In this document: in pieces, positions 1,478 through 56,588 of the stretch
How the letters are laid out: each line of letters opens with the position of its first letter
Numbering within the stretch: the stretch's first letter is position 1
NCBI RefSeq assembly: GCF_030817535.1
Contig: NZ_JAUSZL010000002.1
Coordinates: forward strand, 3,224,001 to 3,288,000
DNA length: 64,000 bases
Source: Streptomyces sp. V3I8
Lineage (GTDB): Bacteria > Actinomycetota > Actinomycetes > Streptomycetales > Streptomycetaceae
Reading direction: 5' to 3'
Made by a program: the position numbers and the translations under genes
The notes under the pieces: generated by a model
The model's input: the letters and a program-made list of their open reading frames with translations, nothing else
What the model was told of the DNA's origin: nothing
Databases searched by the model: none

Positions 1478-3652
1478 ATGGATTCGACACGCGTGACGGA
1501 GCACCCCACCTCCCATGAGCGCCGGCAGCCGAGCGCTGCCCGGCCCACGGCCCCCGCGGACCCTCGCGGGGCGCTCCTGCGTACCCCTGAGCCGCCGGTA
1601 CCGGGCTCAGCCGGTTTACCCGCGCAGGGACGGATCGCAGGCACCCCCGCACCGCCGGGGGCCACAGACATGCCCGTCCCGGACGCCCGGGCCGCCGCCA
1701 CCGGCACGCCCGCCGCGTCGGGTCCCCCGGCCGGCAGCGAGGGCCCGCCCGCGCCCTCGGGAGGGCACGGCCCGGCCGACCCGCCCGCCGGGTCCGGTCC
1801 CGGGCGGTCCCAGCCGTCCGCGAGGGAGCCCGGCCCGCACCGTCCGCGGCCCGTGCCGGAGGCGATCGTGACCCAGCCAGGTGCCGAGGCGTCCGTCCAG
1901 CAGAGCGGCAAGGACCGCCGTACGGGGCAGAGCCCGGCGCCCGGCGCGCCCATGCCGATGCGCCGCGACGGCGACCGGCTGCGGTTCGTGGGCGCCGCCA
2001 CCCGGCGGATCGCCCGCGGCATCGACCTCGACGAGATCGTGATGGGGCTGTGCCGGGCGACGGTCCCGACCTTCTCGGACGCGATCCTCGTCTATCTGCG
2101 CGATCCGCTGCCGGTGGGCGACGAGCGGCCGACCGGTCCCGTCGTGCTGCGGCTGCGGCGCACGGACCGGATCCCGGAGGACCGGGACACCGAGGGCTTC
2201 CTGCTGCCCGCGCTGCAGCCCGAGCCCGACGTGGGCGTCACCGCCGAGCTGTGCACCGTACGGCCCGGTGGCGCGCTGAACGAGGTGCTGCGCGGTGTGC
2301 GGCCCGTCTTCGCGGACGCGCCCGCCGCCCGGGCCGCGCTGCCCGAGCTGATCGGTGACGACCTGACCGTGCCGGGCGGCCAGCGCGCGATCCTCGCGCC
2401 GCTGCGCGGCCGGCGGCGGGTGATCGGTGCCGCGCTGTTCCTGCGCCGCCCCGACCGGCCCGCCTTCGAGACCGACGACCTGCTGGTCGCGGCGCAGCTC
2501 GCCACGCACAGCGCGCTCGGCATCGACAAGGCGGTGCTGTACGGGCGCGAGGCGTACATCGCGGACGAGCTGCAGCGCACCATGCTGCCCGAGACCCTGC
2601 CGCGGCCCACGGGCGTACGGCTGGCCTCCCGCTACCTGCCGGCCGCCGAGACGGCCCGGGTGGGCGGTGACTGGTACGACGCGATCCCGCTGCCCGGCAG
2701 CAGGGTCGCCCTCGTCGTCGGCGACGTCATGGGCCACTCCATGACCTCGGCGGCGATCATGGGCCAGCTGCGCACGACCGCGCAGACCCTCGCCGGGCTC
2801 GACCTGCCGCCGCAGGAGGTCCTGCACCATCTGGACGAGCAGGCCCAGCGGCTCGGCACCGACCGCATGGCGACCTGCCTGTACGCGGTGTACGACCCGG
2901 TCGCGCACCGCATCACCATCGCCAACGCCGGCCATCCGCCGCCGGTGCTGCTGCATCTGGGCGGGCGCGCCGAGGTCCTGCGCGTACCGCCGGGTGCCCC
3001 CATCGGCGTAGGCGGCGTGGACTTCGAGGCGGTCGAGCTGGACGCGCCCGCGGGCGCCACGCTGCTGCTCTACACCGACGGGCTCGTCGAGTCGCGGCTG
3101 CGGGACGTGTGGACCGGGATAGAGCAGCTGCGGGAGCGGATCGCCGCGACCGCGCAGCTGACCGGCCCCGACCACCCGCCGCCGCTGGAGGCGCTGTGCG
3201 ACGAGGTGCTCGACATGCTCGGCCCGGGCGACCGGGACGACGACATCGCGCTGCTCGCCGCCCGCTTCGACGGGATCGCGCCCAGCGATGTCGCGCTCTG
3301 GCACCTCGACCCCGAGGACTCGGCACCCGGGCGGGCCCGGCGGCTGGCCCGCAAGGCCCTGTCGCGGTGGGACATGGAGGAGCTCACGGACTCCGTGGAG
3401 CTGCTGGTCAGTGAGGTCGTCACCAACGCGGTGCGGTACGCCACGCGGCCCGTCACCCTGCGGTTGCTCCGCACGGACGTGCTGCGCTGCGAGGTGGGGG
3501 ACGACGTGCCGCAGCTGCCGCGGCTGCGCAACGCCCGGGCCACGGACGAGGGCGGGCGGGGCCTGTATCTGGTGAACAAGCTGGCCCGGCGCTGGGGGGC
3601 GACCCGGCTCAGCACCGGCAAGGTCGTGTGGTTCGAGCTGAACCACGGCTAG
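1478..3652 (+). CDS. SpoIIE-family PP2C phosphatase with GAF and HATPase domains
   Basis: A 724-residue multidomain signalling protein. Residues 1-150 are a Pro/Ala/Gly-rich disordered tail; residues about 165-330 form a GAF-like sensor; residues about 355-560 form a PP2C/SpoIIE phosphatase domain with GGDWYDAIPL and VVGDVMGHS metal-binding motifs and a late DRDDDIALLAARF acidic motif; residues about 590-724 form an anti-sigma-factor-type HATPase with LVSEVVTNAVRYA (N box) and GGRGLYLV (G box). Such proteins control sigma factors by phosphorylating (HATPase) or dephosphorylating (PP2C) anti-sigma antagonists. No membrane segment is seen, so it is cytosolic. GTG 1493 or a later codon is an alternative start because the N-terminus is low complexity. 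It is convergent with the penicillin-binding protein gene. Confidence 0.88.
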   Translation: MDSTRVTEHPTSHERRQPSAARPTAPADPRGALLRTPEPPVPGSAGLPAQGRIAGTPAPPGATDMPVPDARAAATGTPAASGPPAGSEGPPAPSGGHGPADPPAGSGPGRSQPSAREPGPHRPRPVPEAIVTQPGAEASVQQSGKDRRTGQSPAPGAPMPMRRDGDRLRFVGAATRRIARGIDLDEIVMGLCRATVPTFSDAILVYLRDPLPVGDERPTGPVVLRLRRTDRIPEDRDTEGFLLPALQPEPDVGVTAELCTVRPGGALNEVLRGVRPVFADAPAARAALPELIGDDLTVPGGQRAILAPLRGRRRVIGAALFLRRPDRPAFETDDLLVAAQLATHSALGIDKAVLYGREAYIADELQRTMLPETLPRPTGVRLASRYLPAAETARVGGDWYDAIPLPGSRVALVVGDVMGHSMTSAAIMGQLRTTAQTLAGLDLPPQEVLHHLDEQAQRLGTDRMATCLYAVYDPVAHRITIANAGHPPPVLLHLGGRAEVLRVPPGAPIGVGGVDFEAVELDAPAGATLLLYTDGLVESRLRDVWTGIEQLRERIAATAQLTGPDHPPPLEALCDEVLDMLGPGDRDDDIALLAARFDGIAPSDVALWHLDPEDSAPGRARRLARKALSRWDMEELTDSVELLVSEVVTNAVRYATRPVTLRLLRTDVLRCEVGDDVPQLPRLRNARATDEGGRGLYLVNKLARRWGATRLSTGKVVWFELNHG

Positions 3653-51470: not shown

Positions 51471-51893
51471 ATGTACGAACCGATCCGCACCAAGTCGGTC
51501 CACACGATGGCCGGCACCGCCGACTTTCCCCACCGGTCGCGCGAGGAGGAGCTGGACATCCAGCTCGCCGGTCATCTGGCGGCCCTGCTCGCGGTCACGG
51601 ACGAGCTCCGCGCGCTGGAACCGTCCGCCGAGCTCGACACCGCGGCGGCGCGGCTGGCCGAACAGGTCACCCGTCTGCGCGGAGGGCTGCCGCCGGTCCG
51701 CTCGGCGGCCGCCGTACCGGTCACCGACGAGCGCGAGGCACTGTCCTGCGGACTGCACCGCCGGGCGCACGCGCTCGCGGGGCGGGCGCTCGTCGTCGCG
51801 GCGTCCCGGGCGGACACAGCGGCCGCGATCCTGGCCGCCGAGCGCATGGACGTACACGCGGTGGCCGTCACACCGGCTCTCACCGCCCGCTGA
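51471..51893 (+). CDS. Small conserved Streptomyces-type hypothetical protein
   Basis: A 140-residue soluble, mostly helical protein: EEELDIQLAGHLAALLAVTDELRALEPS, DTAAARLAEQVTRLRGGLP and the C-terminal HRRAHALAGRALVVAASRADTAAAILAAERMDVHAVAV. There is no signal peptide, membrane helix or enzymatic motif. The strong ribosome site (AGGAGG) and an AT-rich palindrome upstream suggest its own regulated promoter. It has its own terminator. Function unknown; I recognise only a recurring protein type in Streptomyces. Confidence 0.75.
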   Translation: MYEPIRTKSVHTMAGTADFPHRSREEELDIQLAGHLAALLAVTDELRALEPSAELDTAAARLAEQVTRLRGGLPPVRSAAAVPVTDEREALSCGLHRRAHALAGRALVVAASRADTAAAILAAERMDVHAVAVTPALTAR

Positions 51894-52092: not shown

Positions 52093-52193
52093 CGGCGGAA
52101 GCCTGGCGTCCGGTTTTGTACTGGGATGGGGTGGCCACCCGGTGTTCATCCGATGCGGCGGGGAACGTCGGATTCCGGGAGCAGGCTCCGGGT

Positions 52194-53270
52194 GTGAGAC
52201 GAATCATCGCCATCGTCCTGGCGGTATTCCTGATCGGCGGAGTGGCAGCAGCCGTCGTAGCGGGCCGCGAAGAACAGGACACGAGCACGGCAACGAAGAC
52301 CGTGCGAGGAGTGATCGGGTCGGAGAAGGCGGAGTTCTTCGCCGACCCGGATGTGGTGAAGGCCCTGGCTGCCAGGGGCTACACCGTGGAGACCGAGACC
52401 TCCGGCTCCTGGGCCATGGAGGGACTCGACCTCAAGGGGTACGACTTCGCCTTCCCGTCCAGCCAGGCACCCGCCGGGGAACTGGCCGCGAAGTACGGCG
52501 TACGGCAGCCGTTGCCGCGCCCCTTCTACTCGCCCCTCGTGGTCGTGGCGCACCGCGGCGCCGCCGAGGTGCTGGCCGCCAACGGCCTCGCGACGCCGGA
52601 CGAGGAGGGCAACGGCACCCTCGGCATGAGGGCCTACCTCGACGCCGCCGCGGACGACAGGACCTGGCAGCAGCTCAAGGGGGCTGACCGGCACGGTGAG
52701 TTGAGCGGCACGCTGTTCATCTCCACCACCGACCCGACCAGTTCCAGCTCGGGCGCGCTGTACCTCGCCGCCGCCTCCTACGTGGCCGACGGCGGCCGGG
52801 TCGCCGACGGCGCCGCGGCGGTCGGCCGCACGGCGCCCCTGATGCGCAAGCTGATCAGCGTCCAGGGCTCCCAGCAGACCAGCACGGACGCGGCGTTCCG
52901 GGACTTCGTGAGCGGTGCCGGAAACCCGCTGGTCCTCGTGTACGAGTCCCAGGTCGCGGCCCTCCTCACGCAGGGCCGGGGCGTCGACGACCTGGTCGTC
53001 CTCTACCCGGACACCACCGCCAACAGCGACCACACCGTCGTCCCCCTCACGGACGAGGGGCGCGCCCTCGGCGAACTGCTCGGCACCGACAAGGAGCTGC
53101 GCCGGCTCGCGGTGCGCCACGGGTTCCGGCCGCAGGGCGCCGCCGCCGAGTTCACGGCGGCCACCGGCGCCCACACCAGGTACCTCGACCAGAAGCTGAC
53201 CGGCGTCCGGCAGGCGCCCGTGCCCGCCTCCACGGTGCTGCACGACATGGCCCGCCGGGCCCGGAAGTAG
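52194..53270 (+). CDS. Membrane-anchored substrate-binding-like protein of the TelA operon
   Basis: A 358-residue protein with one N-terminal membrane anchor or signal (IIAIVLAVFLIGGVAAAVVA, about 3-24) and then a bacterial solute-binding-type fold: VRGVIGSEKAEFFADPDVVKALAARGYTVETETSGS, YDFAFPSSQAPAG, RPFYSPLVVVAHRGAAEVLAANG, LFISTTDPTSSSSGALYLAAASYVADGG and NPLVLVYESQVAALL. The anchor lacks a lipobox, so it stays bound to the membrane outside the cell. GTG 52194 has GGAGCAGG upstream. It lies 12 bases before telA-like and opens the operon. Ligand unknown. Confidence 0.8.
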   Translation: MRRIIAIVLAVFLIGGVAAAVVAGREEQDTSTATKTVRGVIGSEKAEFFADPDVVKALAARGYTVETETSGSWAMEGLDLKGYDFAFPSSQAPAGELAAKYGVRQPLPRPFYSPLVVVAHRGAAEVLAANGLATPDEEGNGTLGMRAYLDAAADDRTWQQLKGADRHGELSGTLFISTTDPTSSSSGALYLAAASYVADGGRVADGAAAVGRTAPLMRKLISVQGSQQTSTDAAFRDFVSGAGNPLVLVYESQVAALLTQGRGVDDLVVLYPDTTANSDHTVVPLTDEGRALGELLGTDKELRRLAVRHGFRPQGAAAEFTAATGAHTRYLDQKLTGVRQAPVPASTVLHDMARRARK

Positions 53271-53282
53271 GGGGAACAGCAC

Positions 53283-54458
53283 GTGAGCAATCTCGAAGAC
53301 ACCTTCACCCTCACCCCTCCCGAGCCGGTCGCGGCCGTGCCGAAGGAGAAGGCCGGCACGCTCGTGCCGGTCGCCGAGTCGGTCCGCGGCGACATGGCGC
53401 GCAAGGCCGCCGAGTACGTCGACGCGCTCGCCGTGCTCGACGCCCGCTCCCCCGAGTTCGCCGGGAAGGTCGGCGAGGTCGTCGCGCTCGGCTCCGGCGA
53501 GATACGCGGCGCCGCCGCCCGGTCGAACCGCATGCTGGAGCGCACGGTCCGCGCCCTGCCCGCGAACGGCGAGGACGCCCAGGCCCGCGTCTCGTCCTCG
53601 CTCGTCGAACTGCGGCGCACCGTCGAGGACCTGGACCCGCGCGACCTGCCCGGCGGGAGGGCGCGCAAGCTGCTGTCCCGGCTGCCGGGCGGCAACCGGC
53701 TCCGCGACCACGTGGCCGGGTACGCCTCCGCGCAGGGCACGCTGAACAGGATCGTGGGCTCGCTGCGCGGCGGCCAGGACGAACTGCGCCGCGACAACGC
53801 CGCGCTGCAGACCGAACGCGTCCGCCTCTGGGACTCGATGGGCAGGCTCCAGGAGTACGTCGTCCTCACCGAGGCCCTGGACGCGGCGGTCGAGGGCCAC
53901 ATCACCGGCGTCGAGGCACAGGACCCGGTCCAGGCGGACGCACTCCGCGCCGACGTCCTCTTCCCCGTACGGCAGAAGCACCAGGACCTGCTCACCCAGC
54001 TCGCGGTGTGCGCCCAGGGCTATCTGGCGATGGACGTGGTCCGCCGCAACAACGAGGAGCTGATCAGGGGGGTCGACCGCGCGGCCACCACCACGGTCTC
54101 CGCGCTGCGCATCTCCGTGATGCTCGCCGCCGCCCTCGACGACCAGCGCAAGGTCGTCGAGCAGGTCGACGCGCTGCGCGGCACGACGGAGGACCTCATC
54201 CGCGGCAACGCGGAGATGCTCGCCACCCAGAGCGGCGAGATCCAGCGCATCGCCGCCGACCCCGCCGTCGGGGCTCAGACGCTGCGCTCGGCGTTCCAGC
54301 AGATCTACCGGACGCTCGACGCCATCGACACGTACAAGGTCCAGGCCACGCAGACCATGGCGGCGACCGTGGAGTCCCTGACCTCGGAGCTCCAGCACGC
54401 CACGTCGTACCTGGAGCGCAGCCGCTCGCAGGGCGCGCCGGAAGGGGGCCTCGCATGA
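53283..54458 (+). CDS. TelA-family (toxic anion resistance) protein
   Basis: A 391-residue cytosolic, almost wholly helical protein. It carries the TelA core: LARKAAEYVDALAVLD-like start helix, SPEFAGKVGEVVALGSGEIRGAAARSNRML, LSRLPGGNRLRDHVAGYASAQGTLNRIVGSL, LRRDNAALQTERVRLWDSMGRLQEYVVLTEALD and the long C-terminal coiled coil RNNEELIRGVDRAATTTVSALRISVMLAAALDDQRKVVEQVDAL. TelA proteins are linked to tellurite tolerance and envelope stress, but the biochemical role is not established. The downstream gene overlaps it by ATGA, giving a tight operon with the binding-protein genes. Confidence 0.9.
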   Translation: MSNLEDTFTLTPPEPVAAVPKEKAGTLVPVAESVRGDMARKAAEYVDALAVLDARSPEFAGKVGEVVALGSGEIRGAAARSNRMLERTVRALPANGEDAQARVSSSLVELRRTVEDLDPRDLPGGRARKLLSRLPGGNRLRDHVAGYASAQGTLNRIVGSLRGGQDELRRDNAALQTERVRLWDSMGRLQEYVVLTEALDAAVEGHITGVEAQDPVQADALRADVLFPVRQKHQDLLTQLAVCAQGYLAMDVVRRNNEELIRGVDRAATTTVSALRISVMLAAALDDQRKVVEQVDALRGTTEDLIRGNAEMLATQSGEIQRIAADPAVGAQTLRSAFQQIYRTLDAIDTYKVQATQTMAATVESLTSELQHATSYLERSRSQGAPEGGLA

Positions 54459-56002
54459 GACGCCTCCGTCCGGTGGTGGCCGCCGTCGCGCTGGCCCTGG
54501 TGACGGCCGGATGCACGTCCGCCCCGCGGGAGCCGGGCCCTTCCGGCGACGGGCCGGTCCCCGGCACCCTGCGCGTCCTCGCCTCCAGCGAGCTCTCGGA
54601 CATGAAGGGTGTGCTGGAGCAGGTCCGGAAGGACACCGGCATCACGGTCCGGCCCACCTACCTGGGTACCCTCGACGCGGTCGACCTCCTCGCGAAGGGC
54701 AGGGCGAAGGGCGCGTACGACGCCGTCTGGCTCTCCTCCGGCGCCTACCTGCGGCTCGATCCCGCCGCCGCACGGCAGATCGTGTCCGAGACCCCGGTCA
54801 TGTCCAGCCCGCTGGCCGTCGGGGTGCGGCCCGCCACCGTACGGAGGCTGGGCTGGAAGCCGGCGGACGTCACCTGGACCGACATCGAGAAGGCGGTCCG
54901 GGACGGCGGGCTGACGTACGGCATGACCGACCCGTCGCGCTCCAACTCCGGCTTCTCCACGCTCGTCTCGGTGGCCTCGGCCCTCTCCGGCGCCCAGTCG
55001 GCGCTCACGGACGCGGACGTGCGGCGGGCGACGCCCGAACTGGCGGAGTTCTTCGAGGGCCAGAAGCTGACGTCCGGGTCCTCGGGCTGGCTGGCGGCGG
55101 CGTACGACCGCCGCGGTGACGTCGACGCGCTGCTCAACTACGAGTCGGTGCTGAGGTCGAGGAAGGACCTGACGGTGATCCGCCCGCGCGACGGCGTGGT
55201 CACCGCCGACTACCCGCTCTCCTCGCTCACCTACACGAGCCGGGAGGCCCGCGCCGACGTCCGCCGCCTCACCGGGGCCCTGCGCACTCCGGCGACCCAG
55301 AAGCTGATCACCGACCGCACGCTGCGCCGGCCCGTCGTGCCCGGCGTGCCGCCCGCGGCCGGACTGGACACCGCCCGCCGCCGCGAACTCCCGTTCCCCG
55401 GCAGCCGGTCCGTCGCCGACGGCCTCCTCGACTCCTACGAGAACGAGCTGCGCCGCCCCTCGCGGACCGTGTACGTGCTCGACACCTCGGGCTCGATGGG
55501 CGAGGACGGGCGGCTCGGCCGGCTCAAGAAGGCCCTGACCGGCCTCACCGGCGACTTCCGCGAGCGCGAGGAGGTGACGCTGATGCCGTTCGGGTCGGCC
55601 GTCAAGAGCGTCCGCACGCATGTGGTGCGGCCCGAGGACCCGCGCGCGGGGCTCGACGCGATCCGCCGCGACACCGGGGCGCTCACCGCGGAGGGCGACA
55701 CCGCGATCTACACGTCGCTGCGGAAGGCGTACGAGCATCTGGGCGCCGGCGACGACACGTTCACGTCGATCGTGCTGATGACGGACGGCGAGAACACGCG
55801 GGGCGCGGGTCCGGCGCGGTTCGACGACTTCCACGGCCGGCTGTCCGGGGCCGCGCGGCGGATCCCCGTCTTCCCGATCCTCTTCGGCGACTCCGACCGC
55901 GCCGAGCTGGAACACATCGCCGACCTGACCGGCGGCCGCCTCTTCGACGCCCGGAAGGGCTCGCTGGACGGCGCCTTCGAGGAGATCCGTGGCTACCAGT
56001 AG
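54455..56002 (+). CDS. Lipoprotein with solute-binding domain fused to a von Willebrand A domain
   Basis: A 515-residue exported lipoprotein. The signal peptide ends in the lipobox VTAGC (Cys about 20). Residues about 35-310 form a solute-binding-type domain (LRVLASSELSDMKGVLEQVRKDTGITVRPTYLGTLDAVDLL, YDAVWLSSGAYLRLD, TYGMTDPSRSNSGFSTLVSVAS). Residues about 340-515 form a von Willebrand A domain with the metal site DTSGSMGED, a threonine in TAEGDTAIY and VLMTDGENTRG. Both lie outside the membrane. It overlaps the TelA gene start (ATGA) and is coupled to it. Together with the previous binding-like protein it makes a two-receptor arrangement. Confidence 0.88.
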   Translation: MRRLRPVVAAVALALVTAGCTSAPREPGPSGDGPVPGTLRVLASSELSDMKGVLEQVRKDTGITVRPTYLGTLDAVDLLAKGRAKGAYDAVWLSSGAYLRLDPAAARQIVSETPVMSSPLAVGVRPATVRRLGWKPADVTWTDIEKAVRDGGLTYGMTDPSRSNSGFSTLVSVASALSGAQSALTDADVRRATPELAEFFEGQKLTSGSSGWLAAAYDRRGDVDALLNYESVLRSRKDLTVIRPRDGVVTADYPLSSLTYTSREARADVRRLTGALRTPATQKLITDRTLRRPVVPGVPPAAGLDTARRRELPFPGSRSVADGLLDSYENELRRPSRTVYVLDTSGSMGEDGRLGRLKKALTGLTGDFREREEVTLMPFGSAVKSVRTHVVRPEDPRAGLDAIRRDTGALTAEGDTAIYTSLRKAYEHLGAGDDTFTSIVLMTDGENTRGAGPARFDDFHGRLSGAARRIPVFPILFGDSDRAELEHIADLTGGRLFDARKGSLDGAFEEIRGYQ

Positions 56003-56588
56003 GTTTCTCGGCCACCTGGAGTCCCGCAAGAACCTCACCGGGAGCGCCTGCGCGATCGCGGGCCTGGCGCTGACCTTCGCGGGGGCCGCGGGGGCGTACT
56101 GGCCGGTCGTCGTCGCGGGACTGTACGGCGCCGGGGCGCTCCTCGCGCCGCCGGAGCGGCCGCCGGTGCCGGACTTCCCGGACGCCTGCGCCCAGCTGGA
56201 CGGAATCCGGACCGACTTCGGCCGGCTCCGGACCTACCTGGCGGACGTCGGACTGCCGCCCGCCGCGGCCGGCCGGCTCACCGAGCTGACGGAGCTGCTC
56301 GGCGGACTGCTCGACCCCGGGTGGGTCGCGCAGGTGCTCGCGCGGGACGCGGAGGGGGTGCACGTGCTGTCGCGGGCGGTGCGTCTCGACGTCCCGGAGG
56401 CCGTCGACGCGTATGTGCGGGCGCGGTGGTGGGTGCGGCTGGCGCCGGGCGCCGAGTCGCCCGAGCGGCATCTCGAACGGCAGCTGGGTCTGCTGCACGA
56501 CGAGCTGACGTCGCTGGCGGCGACCCTCCGCGAGACGGAGGCCCGCCGCCAGGAATCGCACACGCGGTACCTGGAGGACCGGGCGTGA
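55989..56588 (+). CDS. Small membrane protein of the TelA operon
   Basis: A 199-residue protein beginning at GTG 55989, which overlaps the end of the lipoprotein gene by 14 bases. Two hydrophobic segments (about 20-38 and 40-55) form a hairpin (GSACAIAGLALTFAGAAGAYWPVVVAGLYGAGALL), and the rest is a soluble helical domain (about 60-199) with many Arg and Glu residues, likely cytoplasmic. No family is recognised. It could link the outer lipoprotein sensor to cytosolic TelA, but that is inference from position. Confidence 0.78.
   Translation: MATSRFLGHLESRKNLTGSACAIAGLALTFAGAAGAYWPVVVAGLYGAGALLAPPERPPVPDFPDACAQLDGIRTDFGRLRTYLADVGLPPAAAGRLTELTELLGGLLDPGWVAQVLARDAEGVHVLSRAVRLDVPEAVDAYVRARWWVRLAPGAESPERHLERQLGLLHDELTSLAATLRETEARRQESHTRYLEDRA

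Follow-up and report, generated by a model that had tools for sequence, protein, structure and literature searches.

The stretch analysed here, hereafter the window, comprises 64,000 nucleotides (nt) of Streptomyces sp. V3I8 (contig NZ_JAUSZL010000002.1, positions 3,224,001 to 3,288,000) and contains a four-gene TelA locus. Judged from sequence, the four genes are one co-inherited operon, in which the cytosolic protein TelA (g2) is accompanied by two extracytoplasmic binding-protein-like proteins (g1 and g3) and by a membrane protein (g4) that is a probable, not proven, diverged relative of XpaC. A conserved candidate binding site for the regulator PhoP, a PHO box, lies upstream. By gene content, the outer pair of g1 and g3 is the most widely kept part of such loci; it is usually joined by a g4/XpaC-like protein and TelA, and its partners are exchangeable. 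Among known systems, the operon is closest to the XpaC-TelA pair. The features are as follows.

52133..52154, + strand: candidate PhoP-binding PHO box, composed of two directly repeated 11-nt units whose 7-nt cores are GGCCACC and GTTCATC

52162..52187, + strand: second conserved non-coding promoter block, GGAAYGTNGGNTTCCGNGAGCANGCT, recognised by its conservation upstream of g1 across Streptomyces loci

52194..53270, + strand: g1, membrane-anchored extracytoplasmic binding-protein-like protein of 358 amino acids (aa), assigned by profile homology to the solute-binding protein (SBP) domain of g3 and by an N-terminal helix

53283..54458, + strand: g2, TelA, cytosolic, 391 aa (PF05816, 274 bits)

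54455..56002, + strand: g3, lipoprotein of 515 aa with an SBP_bac_11 domain and a von Willebrand A (vWA) domain with intact metal-ion-dependent adhesion site (MIDAS), assigned by Pfam, lipobox and alignment

55989..56588, + strand: g4, two-helix membrane protein of 199 aa with a helical cytosolic part, a probable diverged XpaC (PF10112) relative

The open reading frames (ORFs) all lie on the same strand, with a spacing of +12 nt between g1 and g2, −4 nt (ATGA) between g2 and g3, and −14 nt between g3 and g4. A preliminary description of the window had reported four tightly packed genes, two of them overlapping, and the coordinates, strand and 4-nt ATGA and 14-nt overlaps were all reproduced. 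We compared the arrangement with a sample of 200 Streptomyces genomes, in which g3 matches of 579 bits or more were classed as close (type I). TelA was counted above the Pfam cut-off, and one TelA match below it (G461) was left out. TelA and type I g3 occupy an identical set of 69 of the 200 genomes, while a g3 match at any strength is found in 119. The order g1-TelA-g3-g4 on one strand is kept in 65 of the 68 Streptomyces TelA loci other than the window; the three exceptions have g4 in two frames (L061), lie at a contig edge (L106), or combine a shortened TelA with no separate g1 match (L120). With the starts chosen here, the 4-nt g2/g3 overlap is kept in 50 and the 14-nt g3/g4 overlap in 61 of these 65 loci. 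The 68 loci also share their neighbours, with an aminotransferase gene upstream in 62 and a phosphoenolpyruvate carboxykinase (PEPCK) gene in 52, some loci being cut by contig ends. This shared neighbourhood suggests that, within the genus, the association largely reflects one inherited event.

Outside the genus, strong g3 matches (545 bits or more in the Actinomycetota sample) were found in nine of 296 Actinomycetota genomes, all nine with TelA, which occurs in 17 genomes of this sample; a further 25 had weaker g3-like matches of at most 173 bits. Among 199 Pseudomonadota, TelA was present in 36 and g3 in six, in each case with TelA within approximately 1.2 kb on the same strand. Only two of 149 Bacillota had g3, and in one the match lies at a contig edge. 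A genome scan with the g3 alignment gave 163 loci, of which the best 80 were taken; 79 were counted for gene order, and L200, with many frame breaks, was left out. Among these 79 loci (from the best 80 of 163), the four-part set was found in 65, in three orders: g1-TelA-g3-g4 in 48 (Streptomyces, Lentzea, Amycolatopsis, Nonomuraea, a Burkholderiales metagenome-assembled genome (MAG) and others), g1-g3-g4-TelA in nine (MAGs of Psychrobacter, Rhizobacter, Methylotenera and Roseateles; Olsenella, Leucobacter and others), and g3-XpaC-g1-TelA in eight (six Bifidobacterium, two Clostridia). The assignment of g4 in five loci (L184, L186, L188, L192 and L199) rests on weak profile scores of 80-94 bits. 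The other 14 comprise seven genomes without TelA, three loci with no TelA nearby (L196, L208 and L210, judged at the locus and not genome-wide), three at contig edges (L156, L193 and L211), and L203, which has all four parts, its g4 having been missed in the order count through start choice and detected by profile.

The four-part set therefore spans three phyla, Actinomycetota, Pseudomonadota and Bacillota. Between any two of the four proteins, the distance matrices from 63 loci correlate with r of 0.885-0.966, a value reached by none of 500 permutations for any pair, although this figure includes shared species history. The preliminary description had asked whether the four genes stay together; they do so in 65 of the 68 Streptomyces TelA loci and in 65 of the 79 loci of the wider g3 set. 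The mostly unchanged neighbours within Streptomyces would also be expected if the genes were mere passengers, adjacent only through vertical inheritance of a fixed locus. We give this explanation almost no credence, as the same parts are kept in three phyla and three orders, and the TelA and g3 presence sets are identical.

In Streptomyces coelicolor, an excerpt of PMC4415409 describes the PHO box bound by PhoP as two 11-nt units with a GTTCACC core. We scored the pattern GTTCAYC-N4-GTTCAYC (14 positions); because the Y was chosen after viewing the alignment, a strict recount with GTTCACC was also made. Two GTTCAYC-like cores 11 nt apart stand at one fixed position upstream of the proximal block GGAAYGTNGGNTTCCGNGAGCANGCT in all 66 Streptomyces loci having that block. 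These sites carry 1-4 mismatches, with at most three of 14 in 65 of the 66, compared with none of 13,400 random positions. In a set of 51 actinomycete loci (L133-L179 minus L156, plus L183, L185, L187, L189 and L194, with L191 and L195 examined separately), the GTTCAYC pattern is perfect in 10 and has at most one mismatch in 16, and the strict published core is perfect in six and has at most one mismatch in 13; either way, none of 5,118 control windows did so. The ten perfect GTTCAYC sites belong to Lentzea (five), Kibdelosporangium, Umezawaea, Peterkaempfera, Kitasatospora (L176) and Streptomyces (L185). Most differ in start distance from the main Streptomyces group, and the L176 and L185 operons are without TelA. 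Nocardiopsis (L183) has a site with two mismatches at −162.

The genome to which the window belongs has only three exact GTTCAYC sites, against none for the reversed control; they precede genes for a phosphate transporter of the PHO4 family, a PhoX phosphatase and a GH92 glycosidase (L233:1501-1518). Since exact sites stand before phosphate transporter and phosphatase genes, the pattern marks phosphate genes in this genome. We infer from these alignments that PhoP controls the operon in Streptomycetaceae and Pseudonocardiales, to which we take the lineages with a PHO box to belong. The preliminary description had read the locus without its promoter; its account of the gene content holds, and the conserved PHO box had been overlooked.

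The proximal block is found with at most four mismatches in 63 of 68 sequences and starts 32 nt (45 sequences), 33 nt (19), 81 nt (2) or elsewhere (2) before g1. As its distance to g1 varies, it shares no constant reading frame with that gene and was taken as regulatory DNA. A start of g1 further upstream was considered and rejected: the block is codon-like in its variable positions, but keeps no fixed frame with g1. Shuffled controls reached 8-12 mismatches at best, and nine of 335 random windows from the same loci had at most one mismatch, the site itself not being masked. The block possibly contains a −10 element at 52163-52168. It could also be an extracytoplasmic function (ECF)-type promoter (GGAAY...), a reading that leaves the direct repeats unexplained.

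TelA has long been labelled a tellurite or toxic-anion protein, with no established mechanism. The g2 product covers the full TelA domain (PF05816, 274.4 bits against a cut-off of 30, model positions 3-332 of 332) and is single-copy in the window's genome. For g4, Pfam gave one chance match below cut-off, and PF10112 (cut-off 29.8 bits) matched none of 13 g4 relatives at an E-value of 1 or better. Profile-profile comparison with hhalign aligned g4 with XpaC proteins over 149 columns (probability 82, E 1.1e-5), and an iterated profile started from the XpaC protein of L132 pulls in the g4 family. In this actinomycetotal locus, the protein in the g4 place itself matches PF10112 (38.5 bits); the Bifidobacterium and Clostridium versions likewise hold XpaC-type proteins in that place (96 bits in the L204 genome cluster, the others by profile). 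Two hydrophobic stretches near residues 16-53 of g4 were judged by eye to form a hairpin, both scoring just under the cut-off of the hydropathy script. A gene for such a hairpin with a helical cytosolic part lies inside the TelA cluster in 65 of the 68 Streptomyces loci. The earlier view of g4 as a hairpin-anchored membrane protein therefore stands as regards the two helices, as judged by eye, whereas its resemblance to XpaC, TelA's known partner, had escaped notice.

The B. subtilis pair xpaC-yaaN is given as a core sigma-W operon in an excerpt of PMC3498285. In Listeria, lmo1966-lmo1967 is an XpaC-TelA pair, and an lmo1967 mutant was reported to show raised sensitivity to both nisin and tellurite (cited in an excerpt of PMC12791056). 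Among our 149 Bacillota, TelA was found in 18 and PF10112 above cut-off in 10, in all 10 with TelA within approximately 1.4 kb; PF10112 matched Lactococcus but missed the B. subtilis control, so the XpaC counts may be too low. Sigma-W membership, the mutant phenotype and this linkage all speak for a cell-envelope stress module, that is, an XpaC-TelA system raising tolerance to wall-active antibiotics or peptides. Its binding proteins would recognise an intermediate of the wall or of teichoic acid, and its Pho control would follow from the remodelling of the wall during phosphate starvation. We regard this as possible, on the unlikely side. In Bacillota the pair is mostly found without the binding proteins, so what it does there may not apply to the four-gene operon, and the flanks scanned contain no envelope gene.

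The outer protein g1 had no family match in the Pfam search. It is homologous to the SBP domain of g3 (hhalign profile-profile comparison, probability 99, E 3e-18), which is the sole basis for its kinship with binding proteins, and has a single hydrophobic helix at its N-terminus (residues 1-26). The one match of g1 among solved structures, covering 39 positions of a virion protein, seems fortuitous and was discarded. A second g1-like gene lies on the opposite strand (L206:12290-13372) near a Bifidobacterium four-gene set. In g3, SBP_bac_11 (PF13531, 57.7 bits) spans residues 41-286 and is followed by a vWA domain at approximately 338-499, where four VWA models score above cut-off. The lipobox ends at C20, a residue retained in at least 90% of 52 alignment rows. 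The MIDAS residues (DxSxS...T...D) D343, S345, S347, T416 and D444 are invariant across these rows. The metal site assumed in the preliminary description is thus intact; Mg2+ bound there may gate assembly, as that description supposed.

In the binding domain, S45, E46, S163, N164 and E230 are nearly invariant and R291 is invariant across the same rows. The SBP_bac_11 family includes oxyanion binders, and these residues could fit a protonated oxyanion, but equally a metal. Against solved structures the SBP part gave marginal matches only, the N-terminal 60 positions resembling iron-binding proteins (E 0.028). Together with the invariant MIDAS and the nearly invariant E46/E230, this weak resemblance would suit a metal-handling role, in which acidic SBP clefts and the vWA MIDAS bind a divalent metal and load or guard it outside the membrane, tellurite effects being indirect. 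We consider such a role improbable, given that the iron-binding-protein matches are marginal and the promoter evidence favours phosphate. A transporter reading was rejected, as ABC ATPase ORFs (Walker A plus an LSGG[QME] motif) were found in only eight of the 62 loci of at least 12 kb; permeases were not searched. With no dedicated ABC transporter found, the g1-g3 pair would sense, trap or scaffold, and not import. A more distant SBP-vWA protein of approximately 620 aa (L227:5929-7779; in the window's own genome, C2 7400212-7401639) represents a third group of such fusions, and matches of this kind occur in many of the 200 sampled Streptomyces genomes.

The outer pair also exists apart from TelA. 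A g1-g3 pair, with or without g4, has no adjacent TelA in L154, L176 (Kitasatospora), L183 (Nocardiopsis), L185 (Streptomyces sp. CB01881), L187 (Pseudonocardia), L191 and L195 (both Corynebacterium), and L196. Whole-genome searches covering all of these but L196 gave no TelA match in any of the seven genomes, while three positive controls matched; genome completeness was not stated. A second arrangement, Streptomyces type II, consists of g1' and g3' (387-455 bits to the g3 profile) followed by a one-helix protein of approximately 260 aa. The pair is present in all 14 loci fetched (g1' in two frames in L217), none of which gave a TelA or g4/XpaC match, and a type I operon is present at another locus in some of these genomes. 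The third protein of L213 (L213:7544-8332) has BLAST relatives in all 14 loci (L213-L226) and no detected relation to g4; three members scanned had no Pfam family above cut-off. This protein is possibly an alternative output of the same sensor pair. The type II upstream regions show 2-4 mismatches to the PHO box in the six loci examined of the 14. As the outer pair is kept while its partners vary, TelA is not the centre of the system, and a role for it as the obligatory core finds no support, given the seven genomes without it and the other partner in type II. The question about TelA is thereby turned round, the outer binding pair being what is most widely kept.

We propose that phosphate starvation would lead PhoP to switch the operon on, and that, outside the membrane, g1 and the lipoprotein g3 would bind a solute that is scarce or harmful, the likeliest candidates being phosphate, a phosphate-like oxyanion or a phosphorylated envelope compound. 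Binding of ligand and of metal at the MIDAS may alter the contact between g1 and g3; the hairpin protein g4 would couple this change to cytosolic TelA, which would then adjust the envelope or transport. The outcome would be a starved cell protected from toxic oxyanions and wall damage. Being rich in phosphate importers, a starved cell would admit more toxic oxyanions and hence need protection, and the tellurite phenotype of TelA would be accounted for in this way. The firm parts of this chain are the operon and, in several lineages, the PHO box. Taken as a whole, a binding-protein complex that has no transporter, is induced by phosphate starvation and connects to TelA by way of g4 is a tentative proposal, to which we assign slightly less than an even chance. 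It would give TelA fixed partners, a membrane side for a possible signal and a candidate inducing condition, phosphate starvation.

Several points weigh against this proposal. Eight of the 17 TelA-bearing Actinomycetota genomes are without a strong g3, and g3 is rare in Bacillota (2/149); the profile searches behind such counts were limited to the top few first-look candidates of each genome. All seven searched genomes in which the pair has no adjacent TelA lack the protein altogether, so other outputs must exist. The link from g4 to XpaC depends on the hhalign probability of 82 and the iterated search. The window's own PHO box is degenerate, departing from the pattern at 2-3 of 14 positions, and does not belong to the three exact sites in its genome. 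No PHO box was found in eight of eight Nonomuraea, Acrocarpospora, Sphaerisporangium and Planobispora loci or in Corynebacterium L191/L195 (5-6 mismatches in both groups), and E. coli-type pho boxes in 14 Pseudomonadota, Bacillota and Bifidobacterium loci had 2-7 mismatches, none convincing; Pho control is therefore not universal. Orthologous promoters are, moreover, non-independent samples. In the binding domain, the two nearly invariant glutamates, E46 and E230, could serve a metal or an amine just as well, and the ligand, the output and the contacts among the four proteins are putative.

A broader reading would place the operon in an undescribed class of transporter-less signalling complex, in which an outer binding pair with a metal-gated vWA domain, induced by phosphate starvation, works through interchangeable membrane and cytosol outputs. 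These outputs would be an XpaC-like protein with TelA (type I), an XpaC-like protein alone (Kitasatospora, Corynebacterium), or the ~260-aa one-helix protein (Streptomyces type II). If so, TelA would be an effector of an outside-in solute sensor. We find this generalisation conceivable, if rather doubtful.

Among known systems, the XpaC-TelA operon of B. subtilis and Listeria is alike in pairing TelA with a membrane XpaC-type partner, and the Bifidobacterium and Clostridium sets hold an XpaC-type protein beside TelA. The operon described here differs in adding a pair of extracytoplasmic binding proteins, of which one carries a vWA domain, in having a PHO box in several lineages and not sigma-W control, and in that the binding pair can exist without TelA. 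The solute-binding proteins of oxyanion ABC transporters resemble g3 in the SBP_bac_11 domain and lipid anchor; g3, however, is fused to vWA and paired with the transmembrane-anchored, SBP-like g1, and no permease or ATPase partner was seen, permeases not having been searched. The eukaryotic alpha2-delta and CLCA proteins are extracellular vWA regulators. They share the extracellular vWA, with profile similarity in the vWA part only, but have another ligand domain, and no channel is known here, so that the likeness is an analogy of working and not of membership. TelA and vWA domains occur in ter-type tellurite and stress loci (TerC/TerD/TerF). The vWA domain here is instead predicted to be extracytoplasmic, and no ter gene was found among the flanks scanned, TerC and TerD not having been specifically searched; the earlier comparison with a ter-type locus is not borne out by these flanks.

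An anti-phage defence or conflict system could account for the patchy presence in 69 of 200 Streptomyces genomes. We consider it very unlikely in view of the PHO box, the largely constant neighbourhood (aminotransferase in 62 and PEPCK in 52 of 68 loci) and the absence of a PADLOC match for any of the four proteins. The phage product that had been offered as a possible ligand likewise finds no support, with no PADLOC match and an aminotransferase neighbour in 62 of 68 loci; the other ligands offered, a wall precursor or an ion, are possible. The open-licence literature searched contained no description of the four-gene set, in agreement with the preliminary description, which knew of none; earlier mention of parts is possible.

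The flanking genes scanned with Pfam encode an aminotransferase, PEPCK, an HlyIII protein, a TetR-type regulator and a Mut7-C protein. A small ORF of 140 aa without a Pfam match (window 51471-51893) lies between the aminotransferase gene and g1 in 60 of the 68 Streptomyces loci. A locus-tag literature look-up found S. coelicolor SCO4978 (integral membrane protein) and SCO4979 (PEPCK) in a published CutR binding table. Further away, at window 1478-3652, is a gene for a SpoIIE-type phosphatase with a HATPase_c_2 domain.

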